From: Desulfobulbus sp.
GTDB lineage: Bacteria > Desulfobacterota > Desulfobulbia > Desulfobulbales > Desulfobulbaceae
DNA length: 34,688 nucleotides
Assembly: GCA_011051875.1 (NCBI GenBank)
Contig: DRKI01000180.1
Coordinates: 1 to 34,688, forward strand
Direction of reading: 5' to 3'
Below, one piece after another: positions 1-15,670 of this stretch. The position numbers and the translations under genes were made by a program. Position 1 is the stretch's first letter. The number at the start of each line of letters is the position of its first letter. The notes below the pieces were generated by a model that saw only the letters and a list, made by a program, of their open reading frames with translations, was not told the DNA's origin and did no database searches.

Positions 1-1505
1 AAGTTGGTCTCCTGGAACCGCTGGTAGAGTTCGGCCAGAGTCTGGTCCCTGCGGATGGTCACCGGGTTCCGGTTCATTACCTCGCCCACCATGACGCCCT
101 GCATGATGTCCATATCCCTGCCCTGGGCAAAACGGATGCCGCGTCGGGTCAGCTTGATGGTGTAGATGGAGTCGGGGTAGAGATGTTGCGCCAGGTAGGA
201 GGCCATGACCGCGGTGATCATCAGCGGCAGGATCAGAGAGTAGTCGTTGCTCATCTCGAAGACGATCAGCATGGCGGTGAGCGGGGCGCGTGCGCAGGCT
301 GCGAACACGGCGGCCATGCCCACCAGGGCGTAGGCGCCGGACGGCCCGGCCAGTTCCGGCTGCCATGCGGAAAAAAGGGTGCCCATGGCGCCGCCGAGCA
401 TGGCGCCGATGAACAGCGACGGTGCAAAGACACCACCGGAATTGCCTGAGCCCAGTGTAAAGGAAGTGGCCAGCGGCTTGAGAAAGACCAGCAGGGCCAG
501 GAGCCAGAAATCCACCCTCCCCTGCAGCGCCTCTTCAATGAAGGTGAAACCGGCGCCATAGACATGGGGAATGTTCTCGATCAGCGGCATCTCGAGCCGG
601 AACTCGGTAATGGACTGAAAACCGATGCCGGGCAGATGCAGGTAACCGAACCCGAGCAGGCCCAGCAGCAGGGCGCCCACGGCCGGTTTAAGCGCCAGGG
701 GAAATTTCCAGTCGTCAAACAGGTCCTCGAACCAGCCCAGCATGCGGATGAACATGATACCGACCAGGGCGGCGACAAGGCCCAGCACCAGGTAGAAGAG
801 GATGGAGAGCGGCGAATGCATGGTGTAGGTAGGCACGGTGAAGGCCGGCCGCGCGCCAAGAAAGATCTGGCTGACGATGGAGGCCGAGACCGCAGCGATC
901 ACCACGTTGCCGAACATGCGCACCTGCAGCTCGCTCATGAGGACCTCGATGGCAAAGGCGACCCCGGCGATGGGGGCATTGAAGGTGGCGGCGATACCGG
1001 CGGCCGCGCCGCAGGAGACCAGGTTCCTGATCCGTTCGTCGGAGAGGTGCAGGAGCTGGCCCATGGTGGAGCCCAGGGCCGAGCCCACCTGGACAATGGG
1101 CCCCTCCCGGCCCGCCGAACCACCGGTGCCGATGCACAGGGCCGATGCCACGATCTTGGCCAGGGCCACCCGCGGCCGGATACGGCCGCCACGCAGGACC
1201 AGGGCCTGCATGACCTCGGGCACACCGTGCCCCTTGGCCTCGCGGGCAAACCAGGCAATGAGCGGCCCCACCAGCAGGGCGCCGGCAACGGGCACCAGGA
1301 CGTAACTCCACATGCCCAGGTGCGGAAAGGTAACCTGGATGGTGGAGTAGGACCAGTCCTGGATCAGGGCGATGAGACGGATGAAAAAGACAGCGGCCAG
1401 GCCGGTGGCGGCACCGATAACCATGGCCAGGACAAGAAGGAGCAGCCCTTCCGGAGGGGATATCTTGTCAAGAAGGAGACCGCCGGGACTGCGATTGATG
1501 CTCAT
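1..1505 (-). CDS. CLC-family chloride channel with C-terminal CBS domain (3'-truncated by window)
   Basis: Integral membrane anion channel or transporter of the voltage-gated chloride channel (CLC) family. The reading frame is open from the ATG at 1505 to the window edge (501 codons plus 2 nt), so the C-terminus is missing. An in-frame TAA lies ten codons upstream, which fixes this ATG as the first possible one. CLC signatures are visible: GHGVPEV at about residues 92-98, GGSAGREGP at about 128-136 with the gating glutamate E134, and a GSGNSGGVFAPS loop further on. The residues before the window edge (VMNRNPVTI) look like the start of a CBS domain. At the position of the internal proton glutamate (E203 of E. 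coli ClcA) I read valine (FAIEV), which suggests a passive channel rather than a Cl-/H+ exchanger; this is inference from a hand alignment. It is the last visible gene of the minus-strand run, 67 nt after the SixA gene. Confidence 0.93.
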   Translation of the reverse strand, partial: MSINRSPGGLLLDKISPPEGLLLLVLAMVIGAATGLAAVFFIRLIALIQDWSYSTIQVTFPHLGMWSYVLVPVAGALLVGPLIAWFAREAKGHGVPEVMQALVLRGGRIRPRVALAKIVASALCIGTGGSAGREGPIVQVGSALGSTMGQLLHLSDERIRNLVSCGAAAGIAATFNAPIAGVAFAIEVLMSELQVRMFGNVVIAAVSASIVSQIFLGARPAFTVPTYTMHSPLSILFYLVLGLVAALVGIMFIRMLGWFEDLFDDWKFPLALKPAVGALLLGLLGFGYLHLPGIGFQSITEFRLEMPLIENIPHVYGAGFTFIEEALQGRVDFWLLALLVFLKPLATSFTLGSGNSGGVFAPSLFIGAMLGGAMGTLFSAWQPELAGPSGAYALVGMAAVFAACARAPLTAMLIVFEMSNDYSLILPLMITAVMASYLAQHLYPDSIYTIKLTRRGIRFAQGRDMDIMQGVMVGEVMNRNPVTIRRDQTLAELYQRFQETN

Positions 1506-1572
1506 GGGCTGGCTGATTTCCGCGGGTTGGGGTTACCGGGAACGGAATTGCGGCGGGGAAAACCGGAGCGGT

Positions 1573-2079
1573 TCACTCCTGCCTGGTCATGAGCTTCTTC
1601 GGATAATCAAAGAAGACCGGGCTTCCACCCCCTGCATCTACATCCTGCCAGGACGACACGGAAAAATCAAGACAGACAATACCGGCGGTGGGGACGTTGC
1701 CGATCGTCATCCTGCCAAGCATATTGGCCAGCAGGGTGAACTCGTTGTTATGGCCCACCATGATGACCTGCTGCCAGGCCGGGTCGAAGCGGTGGATACA
1801 GTCGAGCAGAACAGCGGGAGTCGCGCCGTAGATCGCATCGATGATCCGAATCCCGGCCAGCGGATAGCCGAGCTTCCGGGCCAGGTGTTTTGCCGTCTTG
1901 CGCGCCCTTCGGGCCGGGCTGGTGACCATGGCGTCAGGCACGATGCCGCGGGCCGCGAGCCTCTCGCCCATCAGGGGAGCATCCCGCTTGCCGCGACGGT
2001 TGAGCGGACGGTCCCGGTCAGCGAGCGACGGATCCTTCCAACTCGACTTGGCGTGCCGGCAGAGCAGCAGTCGCTTCAC
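1573..2079 (-). CDS. SixA-like phosphohistidine phosphatase (histidine phosphatase superfamily)
   Basis: 168-residue branch-1 histidine phosphatase close in length to SixA, which removes phosphate from phosphohistidine in cytoplasmic phosphotransfer proteins. The N-terminus LLLCRHAKSSW carries the catalytic RHxxS motif (His9). SPARRARKTA supplies the second arginine and MVGHNNE (about residues 106-112) the second histidine. The GTG start at 2079 overlaps the TGA stop of the upstream ParA gene (GTGA), indicating translational coupling. The whole conserved fold is present with no signal peptide. Cytoplasmic phosphatase activity is well supported. The true substrate is unknown; placement behind ParA and CHAD genes suggests a role with them rather than with a phosphorelay, since no histidine kinase is visible. 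Confidence 0.9.
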   Translation of the reverse strand: MKRLLLCRHAKSSWKDPSLADRDRPLNRRGKRDAPLMGERLAARGIVPDAMVTSPARRARKTAKHLARKLGYPLAGIRIIDAIYGATPAVLLDCIHRFDPAWQQVIMVGHNNEFTLLANMLGRMTIGNVPTAGIVCLDFSVSSWQDVDAGGGSPVFFDYPKKLMTRQE

Positions 2080-2822
2080 GGGCCCTCCAGTTCGCCGCAG
2101 ATGGCGTCCCAGAGCTGCCGGTAGCTCTCGGCGGCCGGCGAGTTCGGCAGCATGGCGGCCACGGGCTGCCGATAGATACCCATCTTTTCCACGTCAGCGA
2201 GGAACGGAATGGCACAGGGCAGGACGCCGGGTTCATCCTGCAGGAGCCGCATCATCTCGCCGTGCATCTTCTTGCGCTTTTCCACCATGGAGAAGAACAC
2301 CAGGACCTTGGCCCGGTCCAGTTCGATCTCGTCCAGGAAATCGAGAAGCTGGCCCAGGGCCAGGTGAGAGAGGGTGGTGGGAATCAGCGGGACCAGGATC
2401 CGGTCTGCGGCGTGAAAGATATTCTCGGAGAGCAGGGTGACATTGGGCGGGCAGTCGAGGAAGATGTGATCATACTCCTCGCGCAGGGGCCTGAGGATCT
2501 TCGATATCCGCCGGCGGGACTTCTTGAGGTCATCCAGGGCGATATCGATGTTGCGATAGGAGAAATCGGCCGGCAGCAGGTCCAGGCCCGGGTAATCGGT
2601 GCCCCGGATATTGCGGTCGATGTGCTTGCCGCCCTTGAGCAGCTTTCTGGTATTGAACTTCTTGGCCGGCCTGATCCGGAAATAGTAGGTGGCCGATCCC
2701 TGGGAATCCATGTCGCACAGGAGTGTCTTGTTGCCCTGGCAGGCCGACAGGTAGGAGAGGTTGACCGAGGTTGCCGTCTTGCCGACTCCGCCCTTGATAT
2801 TATATACCGCAATCACACTCAT
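2076..2822 (-). CDS. ParA/MinD-family ATPase, orphan
   Basis: 248-residue ATPase of the ParA/Soj class. Such proteins bind ATP, dimerise and use the nucleoid or membrane as a matrix to position cargo. The deviant Walker A is KGGVGKT at residues 10-16. CDMDSQGSAT (about 39-48) is the Walker A' region and IFLDCPPN the Walker B. I chose the ATG at 2822 because it lies six bases after GGAG and immediately precedes the conserved SVIAVYNIKGGVGKT start; longer upstream frames add only low-complexity residues. There is no ParB gene or parS-like array nearby, and no DNA-binding extension, so this is not an ordinary chromosome-partition locus. It sits 16 nt after the CHAD gene and overlaps sixA by 4 nt, which suggests that CHAD, ParA and SixA act together. 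A cargo such as polyphosphate granules is inference only. Confidence 0.93.
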   Translation of the reverse strand: MSVIAVYNIKGGVGKTATSVNLSYLSACQGNKTLLCDMDSQGSATYYFRIRPAKKFNTRKLLKGGKHIDRNIRGTDYPGLDLLPADFSYRNIDIALDDLKKSRRRISKILRPLREEYDHIFLDCPPNVTLLSENIFHAADRILVPLIPTTLSHLALGQLLDFLDEIELDRAKVLVFFSMVEKRKKMHGEMMRLLQDEPGVLPCAIPFLADVEKMGIYRQPVAAMLPNSPAAESYRQLWDAICGELEGP

Positions 2823-2838
2823 ACTGGTCTCCGACGAA

Positions 2839-4374
2839 TCAATGGAACAGCTTCCTGAAGAGGGCCACGTTCTTCCTGCTGTCGAACCGGGCAAAGGTCC
2901 TGGCAAACCGTTTTCTGACCCGCTGCTGTTCGTGAAACAGGTTGGTCAGCAGACCGCCGATGGCGGCGGACAGCTCCATGTTCCGCCGGGACCCCGGACG
3001 CAGACCGCGCAGCGAGCGGGCCAGCATCTCCTGCTGCACGGACAGGTCATTGAACTCCCCGAGATTGTTCTGCAACCGCTTGAGCTGCCGGATCACGACC
3101 CCCACCTCGTCGTCCGGGAACAGCGAACGGAAGAATTCCAGGCTGTAGCGCAGTTTCTTGCCCTGGATCCGCAGCCGGTGGAGGTGTTCGTCCGGGCTGT
3201 CGTCACCGATGGCCCGCCCGTCCTTTACGATCCTTTTATAGCGGCGGCGGATGATCCGCCTGGCCAGGTCGATGACGGGCACATCGGCATCGGCCGACGG
3301 TGTGGGATCATCGGAGCGCAGGTATTCGTCCCAGGAGGTGACGATCTGCCGGTAACGGGGCGAACGCAGGGCCCTGACCAGCTTCTTCTGCTCCACCTTG
3401 CGCTGCCCGGCAAGATCGGCGAAAAAGGTGCCCAGCCCATCCTGAAGCATCTCCGGCAGGCGGGCGCGGTAATCACGCTCATAGAGCAGGTACACATCCA
3501 GGTCGCGCACGGGGCCGGTAATCCTGCCCAGGTAGGCGAACTCCTCTTTCATGGTGGCGGTGATATCGGCGGGCAGGACCTTCTTCATCTGGCCCAGGCC
3601 CGAGCGGGTCCTGCGGATGGCGACCCTGAAATCGTGCAGAAACTCGGAATCGAGATCACGGATGATACCCTCCTCGTTGACCAGCATGGTCTCGAGCAGG
3701 AGCCGGTAGATGGTAACGGCGGCCTGGCGCGCGGTCAGATCGGGATCAAGCTGGATGGCGAACTTGGAACTATAGTCTCCGGGTGCCCGGCCCATGGCCC
3801 GCAGTCCCTGCTCAAAGCCGTAAAAGAGCGGGACCTTTTCCACCACCTCGTGCTTGTCGAAAAAGGCGCGCACCGCCCGCATCGGCTTGTCATAGCCCCG
3901 CACCGGGATGAGGCGCACCGTGCGTAAAAGGGTGTCGGTTCCCCTGACCTGCTGGCGGCTGAATTCGACAAAGACCGTGGTCTTCTGATCCCGGTTCAGG
4001 ATGCGGAGCCGGGTATCACCGGAGTGGAGCGTAACCAGGGGCAGCAGGGCCCGGACGTCCAGTAGCGGTTCGAGCAGGGACCGCAACCGGCCCGCGGGCA
4101 GATCCCAGGAAAATACACGTTTTTTTCCCGCCCCTGCCCGGCAGCTCACCAGGGTTTCCCCGGTTCCGGCGTCCAGGAGATGCCAATGGCGATCCCGGTG
4201 GCGCAGAAGATAGCCACGGTTATAGAGGCGCCAGTCAAAGGTATCGTACCAGGTGGCGACGCTTTCCCGCGTCCCCTCGATCTCCACGGCAAAGGCATCG
4301 GCCAGGGCATCCATGAGCGGCTGCATCTCCACCGGCTCGGGCAGATAGCGGGTATCCTGCTGTAGCTCCTGCAT
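2839..4374 (-). CDS. CHAD-domain protein with degenerate CYTH-like N-terminus
   Basis: 511 residues. The C-terminal part (about residues 215-505) is a CHAD domain, an all-helical fold with conserved histidines known to bind inorganic polyphosphate. Its histidine/basic signatures are FLHDFRVAIRRTRS (His about 247) and HLHRLRIQGKKLRY. The first 190 residues resemble a CYTH (triphosphate tunnel) domain: YDTFDWRLYNRGYLLRHR matches the 'YYDTpdlrL..gG..LR.R' part, but I do not find the ExExK motif, so catalysis is doubtful. An AGGTGA ribosome site lies five bases before the ATG at 4374. A GTG at 4383 directly abutting the argJ stop is the alternative start. The protein is rich in Arg/Lys, as expected for a polyanion binder. 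ParA follows after 16 nt. CHAD proteins of other bacteria localise to polyphosphate granules (established); here that role is inferred. Confidence 0.9.
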   Translation of the reverse strand: MQELQQDTRYLPEPVEMQPLMDALADAFAVEIEGTRESVATWYDTFDWRLYNRGYLLRHRDRHWHLLDAGTGETLVSCRAGAGKKRVFSWDLPAGRLRSLLEPLLDVRALLPLVTLHSGDTRLRILNRDQKTTVFVEFSRQQVRGTDTLLRTVRLIPVRGYDKPMRAVRAFFDKHEVVEKVPLFYGFEQGLRAMGRAPGDYSSKFAIQLDPDLTARQAAVTIYRLLLETMLVNEEGIIRDLDSEFLHDFRVAIRRTRSGLGQMKKVLPADITATMKEEFAYLGRITGPVRDLDVYLLYERDYRARLPEMLQDGLGTFFADLAGQRKVEQKKLVRALRSPRYRQIVTSWDEYLRSDDPTPSADADVPVIDLARRIIRRRYKRIVKDGRAIGDDSPDEHLHRLRIQGKKLRYSLEFFRSLFPDDEVGVVIRQLKRLQNNLGEFNDLSVQQEMLARSLRGLRPGSRRNMELSAAIGGLLTNLFHEQQRVRKRFARTFARFDSRKNVALFRKLFH

Positions 4375-4383
4375 GATCTTCAC

Positions 4384-5568
4384 CTAGCTGCGGTAATCCG
4401 CATTGATCTTGACGTAATCAACGGAGAGATCGCAGGTGTAGACCTCAGCCGTCTCCATGCCGTCGCCCAGGTCCACAGTGACGGTGAAGTGGCGCTGACG
4501 CAAGACCCCGGTAGCGGCCTCCTCCGCGGCCCTGCCCAGGCCCAGGCCATTCTCCACCATCAGCACATCGTCAAAGGCGATGGACACCCGGTCCGGAGAA
4601 AAAATGCAGCCCGACCTGCCCAGGGCGGCGATGATCCGGCCCCAATTGGCGTCCTCGCCGAAAAACGCCGTCTTGACCAGGGCGGAATTGGCTATTGTCT
4701 GGGCAGCGTTCATGGCGCTTTCCGCGTCGCGCCCTCCGGTGACCCGGATAGTGACCAGCTTGGTGGCGCCCTCGCCGTCCTCGACGATCTTGAGCGCCAG
4801 CTCGCGGAAGACGGAATGCATTGCGCCGGCAAATATCCTGGCCGCCTCCGGGTTGTCCTCATCGATCCATGGATTGCCGGCAGCACCGTTGGCCATCACC
4901 AGGACCGTGTCGTTGGTGGAGGTGTCGCCGTCCACGGTGATCCGGTTGAACGACTGATCCACACCGGTCTTGATGATCTCCCTGAGAACCGGAAAAACGA
5001 TCTGGGCGTCCGTGACCACGAAACAGAGCATGGTGGCCATGTCGGGCATGATCATGCCCGCGCCCTTGGCCACCCCGAGAATCGACACCTCGACACCATC
5101 CAGGAAAACGGTGGCCGTGGCCATCTTGGGCCTGGTGTCGGTGGTCATCATGGCCCGGGCCAGGTCGTCAAAGCCATCGGCGGAAAGGGCCCCGGCCAGC
5201 CGCGGCATGGCGCGGACAAAGGGCTCTGTCTCCATCTGTTCGCCGATGACCCCGGTGGAGGCGACCTGGACCAGTTCCTCGTCGATCCCCAGCTGCCGCG
5301 CCGCCATGGCGGCGGTGGCAACGGCCACCTCCATTCCGCGCTCACCGGTACAGGCGTTGGCATTGCCCGAATTGACCAGCACGGCCTGGGCCCGGCCCTG
5401 GCGGAGACGTTCCATGTCCAGCAGCACCGGCGCCGCCCTGACAAGATTCGTGGTAAAGACCCCGGCGGCGACCGCCGGAACATCGGAATAGATAAGCCCC
5501 AGGTCCAGCCTGTCCCGGTAGCGGATACCGGCCTGGACGGCGGCGGCGGAAAAACCTTTTACTCTCAT
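4384..5568 (-). CDS. argJ: Bifunctional ornithine acetyltransferase / N-acetylglutamate synthase (ArgJ)
   Basis: 394 residues, full family length. ArgJ transfers the acetyl group from N-acetylornithine to glutamate (and in bifunctional forms uses acetyl-CoA) in the cyclic arginine pathway in the cytoplasm. The self-cleavage site that gives alpha and beta chains is clear: KGAGMIMPDMATML, with cleavage expected between Ala178 and Thr179. VNSGNANACTG (about 65-75), VASTGVIGE (about 102-110) and GDTSTNDTV are also family hallmarks. The start is the ATG at 5568, preceded by GGGAAAGGA at good spacing; an in-frame TTG at 5586 is less likely. It is the first gene of the minus-strand run and its TAG stop is 9 nt before the chosen CHAD start. 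Its arginine-pathway role is unrelated to the downstream CHAD/ParA/SixA genes. Confidence 0.97.
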   Translation of the reverse strand: MRVKGFSAAAVQAGIRYRDRLDLGLIYSDVPAVAAGVFTTNLVRAAPVLLDMERLRQGRAQAVLVNSGNANACTGERGMEVAVATAAMAARQLGIDEELVQVASTGVIGEQMETEPFVRAMPRLAGALSADGFDDLARAMMTTDTRPKMATATVFLDGVEVSILGVAKGAGMIMPDMATMLCFVVTDAQIVFPVLREIIKTGVDQSFNRITVDGDTSTNDTVLVMANGAAGNPWIDEDNPEAARIFAGAMHSVFRELALKIVEDGEGATKLVTIRVTGGRDAESAMNAAQTIANSALVKTAFFGEDANWGRIIAALGRSGCIFSPDRVSIAFDDVLMVENGLGLGRAAEEAATGVLRQRHFTVTVDLGDGMETAEVYTCDLSVDYVKINADYRS

Positions 5569-5935
5569 TCGTCCTTTCCCGAACAATGACGGTCCTGGTC
5601 TGCACCAGGCCAGAAGGTGACTGCAAGGCTGCCCGGTTCAACACCATTCCGGTCTCGGCCGTCCGCCCGAGCCCGGGCCGGTCTCCCGGATATAGACAGG
5701 CACTCTACCAGAAAAGAGGGAAAAAACAAAAAAAATATCATTGCGCCGGTCCGCCGGGAAAGCCGGCCGGGCCACCATTTTTCTTGACCCGGAATCAATA
5801 AATATGCGAATGTGGATACCCTGAACCGAACTTCAAAAACCCTGGACCAGGTACCGGGACCGCGCTCCTTCCCTGTCGGCCGTGCCCTCTTCCACGGGCG
5901 TGGCGTACCTGATCCCAGGGGTACTGACTCGTTGT
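5569..5935. other. Intergenic region between divergent argJ and cls
   Basis: No gene is supported here. The stretch is less GC-rich around 5715-5745 (an A-rich run). On the minus strand a possible sigma70 promoter for argJ reads TTGTTT, 16 bases, TAGAGT within about 5700-5735; both boxes are imperfect. The remaining 5936-6043 is taken up by dispersed repeat copy A and the cls leader. Confidence 0.4.
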
Positions 5936-6029
5936 TGGCATAGGCTCAAAACTGTACGTTGGCACAGGTGCCCGAACCTGTGCCGGCGCGCCGGTATGCC
6001 ATATCCCGGTATGCGGAGCGGCGCGAACC
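5936..6029 (+). repeat. Dispersed intergenic repeat, copy A
   Basis: About 94 bp that also occurs at 21066-21160 (same strand) and, more diverged, inverted at 10796-10887. The block CTCAAAACTGT, two variable bases, GTTGGCACAGGTG is nearly identical between copies A and B. The GCG(T/C)GCCGG and TATGCGG-GCGGCGCGA blocks are shared with copy C. Inside, GGCACAGGT (5961-5969) pairs perfectly with ACCTGTGCC (5976-5984) around a 6-base loop. It ends 14 nt before the cls start codon, so it would lie in the cls leader RNA. Confidence 0.75.
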
Positions 6030-6043
6030 AGACCCAGGAACCC

Positions 6044-7504
6044 ATGGAATCATACTACTGGATACCCACCGGCATGATCCTGATCGCGGATCTCACGATC
6101 CGCATCGGACTCTCCATCAGGGTGATCATGCGCAAGCGGGCGGCAAGCGTCACCCTGGCCTGGCTGGTTGTCATCCTGCTGCTGCCCTTTGTCGGCGCCT
6201 TCATCTACCTCCTGTTCGGAGAAAACAGGCTGGGCGAGCACAGGGCGGTCCGGGCCGCGGCCGACCTCGAGGTCATCACCCGCTGGGCCGATTCCCTGCG
6301 CCGGCGGACCCGGGTGGACTGGGAGAAGATCAACCCGGAGTGTCAGCCCCTGCACCGCCAGATCGACGCCATCATCGGTATCCCCACCATGCCGGACAAC
6401 AGGCTTGACCTGATCACCAGTCCAGCCGACTTTTTCAGGCGCCTGATCGCGGACATCGACAGCGCCGTATCAAGCTGTTTTCTCGAGTTCTACATCTGGA
6501 ACGAGGGCGGCATGGCCGACCAGGTCACAGAGGCCCTGATCCGGGCCCGCAGCCGGGGCGTCACCTGCCGGATTCTGCTCGATTCCATCGGCAGCAAGGA
6601 ATTCTTTTCCAGCCCGACCTGCCGGCGTATGCGCAACCACGGTATTGAGATTGTCGAGGCCCTGCCCGCCGGCCTGGTCAGGGCCCTGTTCGTGCGTGTC
6701 GACCTGCGCAACCATCGCAAGATCGTCACCATCGACGGCAGGATCGGCTACAGCGGTTCGCAGAACCTGGTCGATCCCCGTTACTTCAAGCAGGACGAGG
6801 GGGTGGGCCAGTGGATCGACACCATGGTCAGGGTCGAGGGGCCGGTGGTGGAAATCATGACCGCCTCCTTCATCTATGACTGGCTGCTCGAGACCGGAAA
6901 GAGCATGGAGGAACTGACAGCATCACCGGAGATTCACGAGGTCCCGCCCAATGGCAATGCCCTGGTCCAGCTTGTGCCGTCAGGGCCCGGCTATGGCGAG
7001 GACACCATTCACAACCTGCTGCTGACCACCATCTATGCCGCCCGCAGGGAGCTGATCCTGACCACTCCCTACTTCGTGCCGGACAACGCCATCCTTGCGG
7101 CTCTCAAATCCGCTGCCCAGCGCGGGGTGGAAGTCATCATCATTCTGCCGGAAAAAAACGACTCCCTGCTGGTCCAGTACGCGAGCCGGGCCCATTTCGA
7201 CCAGCTCATCGAGGCCGGGGTGAAGATCATGGCATTTTCCGGCGGCCTCCTCCACGCCAAGACCATCACCGTGGACCGGGATTTTTCCCTGATCGGTTCG
7301 GTAAACCTGGATATGCGCAGCTTCTGGCTCAATTTCGAGATGACGCTCTTTGTCTATGACAAGGAGTTCACCGTGCGCCTCTGCGATATCCAGCACGGCT
7401 ACCTGCGGCAGGCCCGGCAGATCAGGCACGCCGAGCTCAGCCACCGCTCGGCAGGCCGGAGATTCCTGGAAAACTGTGCCCTCCTGGTGGGCCCCCTGCT
7501 CTGA
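6044..7504 (+). CDS. cls: Cardiolipin synthase (phospholipase D superfamily)
   Basis: 486 residues, typical ClsA length. It condenses two phosphatidylglycerol molecules (or a related pair) to cardiolipin at the inner membrane. Two N-terminal hydrophobic segments (about residues 7-27 and 36-58) form the membrane anchor, followed by the usual FGE motif. Both HKD motifs are intact: NHRKIVTIDG (His224, Lys226, Asp231) with a following GYSGSQN, and LHAKTITVDR (His404, Lys406, Asp411) with a following GSVNLDMRS. The start is the ATG at 6044, with AGGA five bases ahead, because the membrane anchor begins just there; a longer frame from 5882 would translate through the dispersed repeat and is not credible. 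A phosphoesterase gene follows after 71 nt. Confidence 0.96.
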   Translation: MESYYWIPTGMILIADLTIRIGLSIRVIMRKRAASVTLAWLVVILLLPFVGAFIYLLFGENRLGEHRAVRAAADLEVITRWADSLRRRTRVDWEKINPECQPLHRQIDAIIGIPTMPDNRLDLITSPADFFRRLIADIDSAVSSCFLEFYIWNEGGMADQVTEALIRARSRGVTCRILLDSIGSKEFFSSPTCRRMRNHGIEIVEALPAGLVRALFVRVDLRNHRKIVTIDGRIGYSGSQNLVDPRYFKQDEGVGQWIDTMVRVEGPVVEIMTASFIYDWLLETGKSMEELTASPEIHEVPPNGNALVQLVPSGPGYGEDTIHNLLLTTIYAARRELILTTPYFVPDNAILAALKSAAQRGVEVIIILPEKNDSLLVQYASRAHFDQLIEAGVKIMAFSGGLLHAKTITVDRDFSLIGSVNLDMRSFWLNFEMTLFVYDKEFTVRLCDIQHGYLRQARQIRHAELSHRSAGRRFLENCALLVGPLL

Positions 7505-13746: not shown

Positions 13747-15573
13747 TCAGGACGTGCCCTTGACCGGCGCCGGTTCATTCTCCCTGAAGATGCGCTTTTC
13801 ATAGGCCCTGAGGATGTCGGCGCGGGTCAGGATGCCGATGACCCGTTCCCTGCCGTCCTCGCGGGACAGGACGACCACTTCGTCCACGTTGTCTTCCGCC
13901 ATCAGCTCCAGGACACGGTTCAGTCGTTCCCAGGGATAGACCGTCTTCCTGGGCTCGACAAAATCCCTGGCCTTGAGGTCGTCGGAAATCCCCCTGGTCG
14001 CGACGAGCTTGCGCACAACCGGTGCATGGATGATGCCGATGTAGCGTTCCTCGTCATCGACGACCGGAAAGTGGGCATGGGGGAAACGGGCCATGTGTTG
14101 CAGCAGCTCGGCCATGGAGATCTCGTGCGGCACCGGATCAGGCGGCGGTGTATCACTGTGCTGGAGTGTTTCATGTACCGTCAAACGAGAGAGAACGCCA
14201 TAGAAAAAATCACCGAGATGGATGGGCGTATCGAAACGGGTGGGAATCTGCTTCTCGTAGAGCCCCTTGCGGCCGCGCAGGAGAAAGGCGATGGTGGAAA
14301 CCCAGACCGCGGGCAGCAACAGGTCGTAACTGCCGGTCATCTCGCTGACCATGATCACGGTGGAAAACGGGGTGGAGGCGGCGGAGGCGAAAAAACCGGC
14401 CATGCCCACCACCACGTAGGCCGGTGCATCCGGGACCAGGCCGGGCCAGAGCTGCTGCAGGGCGAGTCCCACGCTGCCGCCCAGGGCGCCGCCGATCACC
14501 ACCGAGGGGCCGAAGACACCACCGGACCCGCCGGAGCCGATGCTGAAGGCGGTGGTAAAGACCTTGGCCGCGGCGATGGCCAGCAAGAGCTGCATGGAGA
14601 CCTGGCCGTACAGGGCCTGCTGGAGGACCCCGTAGCCGGTATAGATGGCGCCGGGCAGGAAAAAACCGATGACCCCGGTCAGGAGTCCGCCGATGGCCGG
14701 CTTGACATGGGGTTTGACCGGCAGCTTCAGGAACAGGTCACGGATGGCGTAGAAACACCGGGCATACAGACCGGCGCAGAGCGCGACCACGACGGCGAGC
14801 ATGGTATAGGGCACCAGCTCCACTGCGCTGGAAAAGACAAAGGGCGGTGTCACGAACAGAGTCTGGAATCCGAAGAAGAGCGAGAACACGCAGTAGGCGA
14901 TCACCGAGGTGATGGCCGACGGCACCAGCAGTTCATACTCCATGTCAATATCGCGGTACAGGATCTCGGCGGCGAATATGGCTCCGGCCAGCGGCGCATG
15001 GAAGATGGAGCCGATACCGGCGCTCATGCCCGACATCATCAGGATACGGCGCTCCTGCACGTTCAGGCCCAGCCGATGCGCGAAAAGGGAGCCAAAGGCG
15101 GCACCGATCTGGGCGATGGGTCCTTCCCGGCCACCCGACCCGCCCGAGCCAATGGTCACGGCCGAGGAGATGATCTTGATCAGCGGCACCCGTCCCCGGA
15201 TGCGGGCATGTTTGAAATGATAGGCCTCCAGGGCCGCATCGGTGCCATGCCCCTCGGCCTCCGGGGCAAAGGTGAAGACCAGCCAGCCCGAGATGATGCC
15301 GCCCAGGGTGGGGACCACAAGGAGCATCCAGGGAACAAAAGCGGTGTTGGAGGGCGCGAACAGGGACTCTTCACCACCGGGTCCGGGCGGCCGGTAGCCG
15401 GCCATGTGGTCAAGAAAAAAGGATGAGGCGGCATCGAGCGCGGAATAGAAGAGCACGGATCCGAGCCCGGCGATGATGCCCACCGGCAGGGCCAGCAGGA
15501 GAACCCGCCGGTACCTGATCCAGTTGCGTACAGAGACAGCGAACTGCCTGCTGTTGATGGACAGGATCTTCAT
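13747..15573 (-). CDS. CLC-family chloride channel with paired CBS domains
   Basis: 608 residues, complete. The membrane domain spans about residues 22-440: EGHGTDA (about 107-113) at the first anion-binding loop, GSGGSGGREGP (about 142-152, gating Glu150), GSGGSGGVFGPS and TGSYDLLLP with the conserved tyrosine. The C-terminal cytoplasmic part has two CBS motifs (HEISMAELLQHMARFPHAHF... and KTVYPWERLNRVLELMAED...), which in relatives bind adenine nucleotides and regulate gating. At the internal proton-glutamate position I read isoleucine (FAAEI), so channel-like behaviour is inferred. I chose the ATG at 15573 because GGAG stands five bases ahead; a GTG at 15603 adds ten residues. It is the second CLC in the window and differs clearly from the one at 1-1505. 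It is divergent to the glycosyltransferase operon. Confidence 0.95.
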   Translation of the reverse strand: MKILSINSRQFAVSVRNWIRYRRVLLLALPVGIIAGLGSVLFYSALDAASSFFLDHMAGYRPPGPGGEESLFAPSNTAFVPWMLLVVPTLGGIISGWLVFTFAPEAEGHGTDAALEAYHFKHARIRGRVPLIKIISSAVTIGSGGSGGREGPIAQIGAAFGSLFAHRLGLNVQERRILMMSGMSAGIGSIFHAPLAGAIFAAEILYRDIDMEYELLVPSAITSVIAYCVFSLFFGFQTLFVTPPFVFSSAVELVPYTMLAVVVALCAGLYARCFYAIRDLFLKLPVKPHVKPAIGGLLTGVIGFFLPGAIYTGYGVLQQALYGQVSMQLLLAIAAAKVFTTAFSIGSGGSGGVFGPSVVIGGALGGSVGLALQQLWPGLVPDAPAYVVVGMAGFFASAASTPFSTVIMVSEMTGSYDLLLPAVWVSTIAFLLRGRKGLYEKQIPTRFDTPIHLGDFFYGVLSRLTVHETLQHSDTPPPDPVPHEISMAELLQHMARFPHAHFPVVDDEERYIGIIHAPVVRKLVATRGISDDLKARDFVEPRKTVYPWERLNRVLELMAEDNVDEVVVLSREDGRERVIGILTRADILRAYEKRIFRENEPAPVKGTS

Positions 15574-15670
15574 GAACACTCCACACGGTTCCGGTTTCCG
15601 CACGCCGGGATCCCCGGTTCTCTGTTCTTCAGACGGTCACGGGGCATGCATCATGCAACCCGTTGCCCGC

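Follow-up and report, generated by a model that had tools for sequence, protein, structure and literature searches.

A conserved CHAD–ParA gene pair suggests a dedicated system that would position or distribute polyphosphate granules

The spacing and inheritance of polyphosphate (polyP) granules is an open question, and one on which the gene pair described here may bear. A 2025 review lists AlgP as the sole polyP-granule factor and says of energy use on spacing that it "remains to be seen" (PMC13052382). According to PMC6537752, CHAD homologues bind polyP and localise to granules, and the CHAD protein of Chlorobium tepidum (CtCHAD) was crystallised with polyP (PDB 6qva), its binding being weakened by mutations at H253, R256, R260, R296, R418/Y419 and R438/K441. 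ParA/MinD cargo systems of Halothiobacillus were surveyed in 2023 with no mention of polyP or CHAD. In Acidithiobacillus, a folD–ppk–parA–CHAD cluster is reported as conserved (PMC10892726, PMC6416229). A preliminary description of the locus studied here had considered its combination of genes undescribed; the CHAD–ParA adjacency was in fact already on record in those two Acidithiobacillus papers, while no positioning hypothesis appears in their accessible portions. Our literature search, which lay mostly outside subscription journals and bioRxiv, found no earlier proposal of a ParA–CHAD system.

The window, meaning the whole stretch of DNA analysed (34,688 nt), comes from Desulfobulbus sp.; the locus lies on contig C180 of a 3.1-Mb genome in 230 contigs that is ~80% complete. 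By sequence, its closest named relatives are labelled Desulfobulbaceae, Desulfobulbus, Desulfocapsa or Deltaproteobacteria. The minus strand carries the gene row argJ, CHAD, ParA, SixA-like phosphatase and ClC-like frame, with the following features.

4384–5586, minus strand: argJ, immediately upstream of CHAD (ArgJ 484 bits)
2839–4374, minus strand: CHAD protein, 511 aa (ATG start, alternative GTG at 4383; Pfam CHAD 213 bits)
3775–4374, minus strand: N-terminal pseudo-TTM domain of the CHAD protein, residues 1–200 (TTM fold match, without the ExExK metal motif)
3613–3636, minus strand: codons of CHAD H247, R250 and R254, equivalents of CtCHAD H253, R256 and R260 (PMC6537752)
2076–2822, minus strand: ParA-type ATPase, 248 aa (ATG start; Pfam AAA_31/ParA 131 bits)
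2775–2795, minus strand: deviant Walker A motif KGGVGKT including the signature lysine K10 (invariant in 49/49 sequences)
1573–2079, minus strand: SixA-like histidine phosphatase, 168 aa (GTG start; Pfam His_Phos_1 45 bits)
3–1505, minus strand: ClC channel-like frame, cut by the contig end (read from its translation)

CHAD and ParA are separated by 16 nt, and ParA overlaps the phosphatase gene by 4 nt; these spacings and the gene coordinates agree exactly with the preliminary description. Its statement that ParB and a phosphorelay are missing also holds for the immediate surroundings, as neither a ParB nor a histidine kinase gene adjoins the three genes, whose neighbours are argJ and the ClC-like frame. 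No sigma-70-type promoter site was found in window positions 1–6200. CHAD probably shares a transcript with argJ in this lineage only; argJ also lies 5′ of CHAD in loci L114 and L123, and the argJ cluster occurs in 10 of the 80 distant loci surveyed below, but argJ is outside the CHAD–ParA system. The 35-kb contig carries two separate ClC-type chloride channel genes, at 3–1505 and at 13747–15603, the latter confirmed by Pfam.

The Pfam score of the CHAD domain lies far above its cut-off of 25.6 bits, and the AlphaFold2 (AF2) model of the protein has a pLDDT of 95.9. In this model the C-terminal half adopts the Chlorobium CHAD fold (6qv7/6qva; Z about 37, 40% identity), and CtCHAD is the nearest solved structure. 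The CtCHAD residues with polyP roles in PMC6537752 align with H247, R250, R254, R290, R409/Y410 and R429/K432 of the window protein, positions that are conserved at 0.99–1.00 in paired CHADs, except R429, which is basic in 0.83. A Chlorobium orthologue lies directly before ParA (L064), which places a polyP binder proven by biochemistry within the ParA-paired CHAD subfamily. By homology, the prediction that the basic pore of the window protein holds polyP chains or the surfaces of granules is strongly supported.

For the N-terminal half, which Pfam does not identify, the model shows a triphosphate-tunnel (CYTH/TTM) fold, matched across 178 residues at Z about 14.8. ExExK is absent from the window protein and from 65 of 69 paired proteins; ExE.K/R occurs in the other four, possibly by chance, versus 15 of 19 standalone CYTH-cluster ORFs. 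Because the motif has been lost, the tunnel domain probably serves as an adaptor or binding module and not as an enzyme. Other ParA partners typically carry a basic N-terminal tail that binds ParA (PMC12204374); no such tail is conserved in the CHAD protein, which counts against a cargo-adaptor model. In a comparison of paired proteins with five unpaired long CHADs, the search for a pairing-specific signature returned scattered differences, too few to locate an interface.

The ParA protein has no N-terminal helix-turn-helix or other DNA-binding extension. K10, K15, D37, D39 and D123 are invariant (49/49), so that the deviant Walker A, A′ and B motifs are all kept. Its AF2 model (pLDDT 94.4) finds Soj/ParA as the nearest folds (TM 0.84–0.89, 24–28% identity), followed by BcsQ and McdA, and the Pfam/NCBIfam BcsQ models match it weakly. 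This closeness to BcsQ, which does not belong to the classic positioning ATPases, counts against a cargo model. As a sequence proxy for the DNA-binding site, position 183 is R/K in 42 of 49 sequences and position 184 is K/R in 48 of 49. This basic site, the counterpart of a DNA-binding arginine in Soj, is mostly kept; a second Soj arginine with importance for DNA binding is unmatched by the window ParA in the profile alignment, a further point against the cargo model.

We then surveyed the genomic context of this ParA. When the window ParA was searched against 57 relatives, members of its subfamily scored at least 185 bits, versus at most 97 bits for other ParA-like proteins in the same genomes. 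Thirty loci were taken, and CHAD lies directly upstream of ParA in 28 of the 29 that could be assessed; in the thirtieth relative (G014) a contig break falls inside ParA, and the ParA N-terminus lies next to CHAD on the second piece. A scan of a genome collection with a ParA profile alone gave 80 distant loci, all of this subfamily, 78 of them assessable. CHAD was not selected for here, since only ParA was searched, although the profile had been built from ParAs that mostly have an adjacent CHAD. In 71 of the 78, CHAD is the immediate upstream gene on the same strand; 70 of these were counted by script, and the other is L038, where the CHAD frame, though contiguous, is broken. The distant loci span Desulfobacterota, Alpha-, Beta- and Gammaproteobacteria, Chlorobiota, KSB1, Gemmatimonadota, Verrucomicrobiota, Chloroflexota, Actinomycetota, Bacteroidota and others, and one is a MAG labelled Methanophagales. 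The CHAD–ParA gap has a median of −1 nt and a commonest value of −4; the stop and start touch or overlap in most loci across phyla, while other neighbours vary.

As a control, 247 genomes were sampled evenly across the phylum. Of these, 12 have the ParA subfamily and 30 have CHAD. Among the 12 ParA carriers, 11 have CHAD and 10 have the two genes adjacent (Fisher p for co-occurrence = 1.5e-10, uncorrected for phylogeny). The ten adjacent CHADs all sit in open frames 500 aa long or longer, and none of the short CHADs has a neighbour of this ParA subfamily. Pairwise distances of CHAD and ParA are correlated (r = 0.79, n = 68 pairs), with shared species history accounting for part of this. The adjacency in relatives, distant loci and phylum sample bears out the CHAD–ParA part of the proposed cluster.

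Loci without an adjacent CHAD fall on several separate branches of the ParA tree, as expected for losses. ParA stands without an adjacent CHAD in G046, G088, L069, L098 and L100, and a long CHAD occurs without this ParA in G008, G010, G028, G243 and G263; as each occurs alone in some genomes, neither strictly needs the other. Two of the seven exceptions among the distant loci (L070 and L095, Candidatus Binatia) depart from the usual order, with CHAD at the opposite flank of ParA and, at one of them, on the other strand. At L114 (5375–6484; genome G008) the argJ–CHAD order is kept and ParA is replaced by a 370-aa frame without a Pfam match. At L118 (3410–5795; genome G046, which lacks CHAD) argJ is followed by ParA, with a pair of PPK2 genes nearby, giving a ParA that lacks its presumed adaptor. 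A different arrangement occurs at L071 (5992–7674), where a ParA of this subfamily, still behind CHAD, shares a single reading frame with a HAD domain resembling sucrose-6-phosphate phosphatase (Pfam S6PP, 220 bits). No CHAD–ParA fusion was found among the loci surveyed.

No relative of the ParA was found in viral contigs, and among 72,556 plasmid records the subfamily occurs in 12 at E ≤ 1e-20, including six Paracoccus plasmid matches, all of which abut CHAD. Two of these plasmids (L133 and L134, ~300–370 kb) carry the row CHAD–ParA–CYTH–NUDIX, whose NUDIX gene may add one more enzyme, acting on polyP or nucleotides, to the module.

Recurrent neighbours in the 80 distant loci were clustered and then named by Pfam, revealing genes of polyP metabolism. 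PPK1 is near ParA in 11 loci, PPK2 in 9, Ppx in 7, SixA-like genes in 20 and a standalone CYTH cluster, which includes a few frames without the CYTH motif, in 16. At least one of PPK1, PPK2, Ppx, CYTH and SixA is present in 36 of the 80, versus about 1.6 expected under random placement, and one genome (G169) has the row PPK1–CHAD–ParA–CYTH–SixA. The source genome encodes both PPK1 and PPK2 on other contigs. Among the sampled relatives, 27 of 29 CHAD–ParA genomes have PPK1 or PPK2, as do nearly all family members; outside the family, ParA is present in 3 of 3 PPK-bearing genomes versus 1 of 18 others (p = 0.003). Dependence of the pair on PPK1 was rejected, as ten CHAD–ParA relatives lack it; eight of these have PPK2 and two lack PPK2 too. 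With adjacency across phyla and polyP enzymes nearby, the idea that CHAD and ParA form a polyP-linked system, already put forward for this locus, gains support.

The third gene is less constant. Its product belongs to branch 1 of the histidine phosphatase superfamily (the His_Phos_1 cut-off is 21.7 bits), and its catalytic motifs R8-H9, RRARKT and VGHN, starting at 8, 57 and 108, are intact. With the SixA equivalog model TIGR00249 (NCBIfam; cut-off 74.5) it reaches 41.8 bits and is therefore SixA-like and no certified SixA, which corrects the original SixA assignment. The SixA-like gene immediately follows ParA in 20 of 30 relatives versus 13 of 76 distant loci; the three-gene unit has a narrower reach than the pair, and the gene is an optional third companion. 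At L124, L125 and L128, loci without ParA, a SixA-like gene adjoins CHAD with PPK2 or Ppx close by, so the link between SixA and CHAD is independent of ParA. A grouping of SixA, PPX and CHAD in archaea is drawn in PMC10892726. In our reading the phosphatase is ancillary to the metabolism of polyP or phosphate and no part of the motor. The preliminary description had further suggested that SixA could act on a phosphohistidine in CHAD; conserved H247 matches CtCHAD His253, a polyP contact in PMC6537752, so a phosphohistidine on CHAD is unsupported.

Taken together, the conserved pair suggests a dedicated machine that would place or share out polyP granules. CHAD and ParA very probably act together on polyP, and they probably constitute a two-protein polyP cargo system, the job of which we infer to be granule positioning or partition. 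We lean, if only slightly, towards a broader view in which this is a widespread, unrecognised ParA class, present in many bacterial phyla and perhaps in archaea, that drives partition and spacing of polyP granules with ATP through a pseudo-enzyme CHAD adaptor. Physical CHAD–ParA interaction, nucleoid binding and granule positioning would all be parts of such a mechanism. The CHAD domain would hold polyP chains or granule surfaces by its basic pore, a step strongly supported by homology. ParA would take up ATP, form a sandwich dimer and coat the nucleoid, as its motifs and fold suggest. The granule-bound CHAD protein would then stimulate the ParA ATPase and free ParA locally, perhaps through the catalytically dead tunnel domain or the conserved C-terminal helix. 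Granules would consequently track the ParA gradient, spread and reach both daughters, in the manner of McdAB or ParAB. As with the PPK, Ppx and CYTH enzymes of other lineages, the SixA-like phosphatase would be an accessory outside this motor.

Other explanations fit parts of these data. ParA could be a regulatory or assembly ATPase of polyP synthesis or breakdown that switches CHAD or PPK by ATP level and moves nothing, the part that BcsQ plays for cellulose synthase. BcsQ is among the nearest folds, its models match weakly, and PPK and Ppx genes are neighbours in part of the loci; however, fold comparison and profile search both place Soj/ParA partition proteins closest and no PPK type is constant, given the ten pairs without PPK1, two of them also without PPK2, and we consider a regulatory role unlikely. 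It is decidedly less likely that CHAD and ParA are merely co-regulated neighbours in a phosphate or stress operon. Several lineages do carry one gene without the other, but the touching or overlapping stop and start in most loci across phyla, kept while other neighbours change, and the distance correlation of 0.79 both argue for genes that act together.

That a plasmid or chromosome partition ATPase became stranded beside CHAD by chance would agree with a ParA by motif and fold that has no ParB. Against this, the subfamily is nearly absent from plasmids, its best plasmid matches adjoin CHAD, and the pairing is kept across phyla without ParB or parS, leaving such an accident very improbable; an origin in plasmid partition was rejected, the subfamily being rare on plasmids and paired with CHAD there. 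A three-gene phospho-relay, in which SixA strips phosphate from a CHAD histidine, would account for the intact SixA motifs and for the recurrence of SixA-like genes beside CHAD, also without ParA and, in PMC10892726, with PPX in archaea. The conserved CHAD histidine maps instead to a polyP-contact residue, no kinase is adjacent and most distant CHAD–ParA loci lack SixA, so we give a relay scarcely any credence. We therefore retain the polyP cargo system as the preferred reading. If it is true, the ParA/MinD family gains a new cargo class, a mineral-like polymer, and a large protein group now annotated merely as "AAA family ATPase" gains a function. A ParA beside a proven type of polyP binder offers a two-gene test in culturable species, among them Nitrosomonas europaea, Desulfopila aestuarii, Sedimenticola selenatireducens and Methylomonas lenta.

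Set against known systems, the CHAD protein shares its two-domain layout with YgiF-type CYTH–CHAD enzymes but has lost ExExK, probably does not hydrolyse, and has a long CHAD with a pore. With CtCHAD (6qva) it shares 40% identity over the CHAD domain and the tested polyP residues; the available text of that study (PMC6537752) considers neither ParA nor the N-terminal half. The Acidithiobacillus cluster likewise places a gene named parA and CHAD next to each other with a polyP gene, but has other flanking genes; in the accessible portions of PMC10892726 and PMC6416229, no role for ParA is proposed. The spacing of polyP granules along the nucleoid that we predict is like that by AlgP of Pseudomonas aeruginosa (PMC9239181), although AlgP is a histone-like tether and no ATPase. 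ParABS (Soj) has the same ATPase fold and motifs at 24–28% identity, whereas the window ParA has no adjacent ParB gene and its partner, by homology, would bind polyP and not DNA. An McdB or microcompartment operon is not indicated, as the neighbours are CHAD and a phosphatase and no shell gene was found among the scanned window proteins. For the window system a nucleoid gradient is a prediction. The layout resembles McdAB and other ParA/MinD cargo systems, with McdA among the fold matches and a small ParA, lacking a DNA-binding domain of its own, encoded beside a presumed cargo-binding partner; here that partner is a large, folded pseudo-TTM–CHAD protein in place of McdB, and the predicted cargo is polyP.
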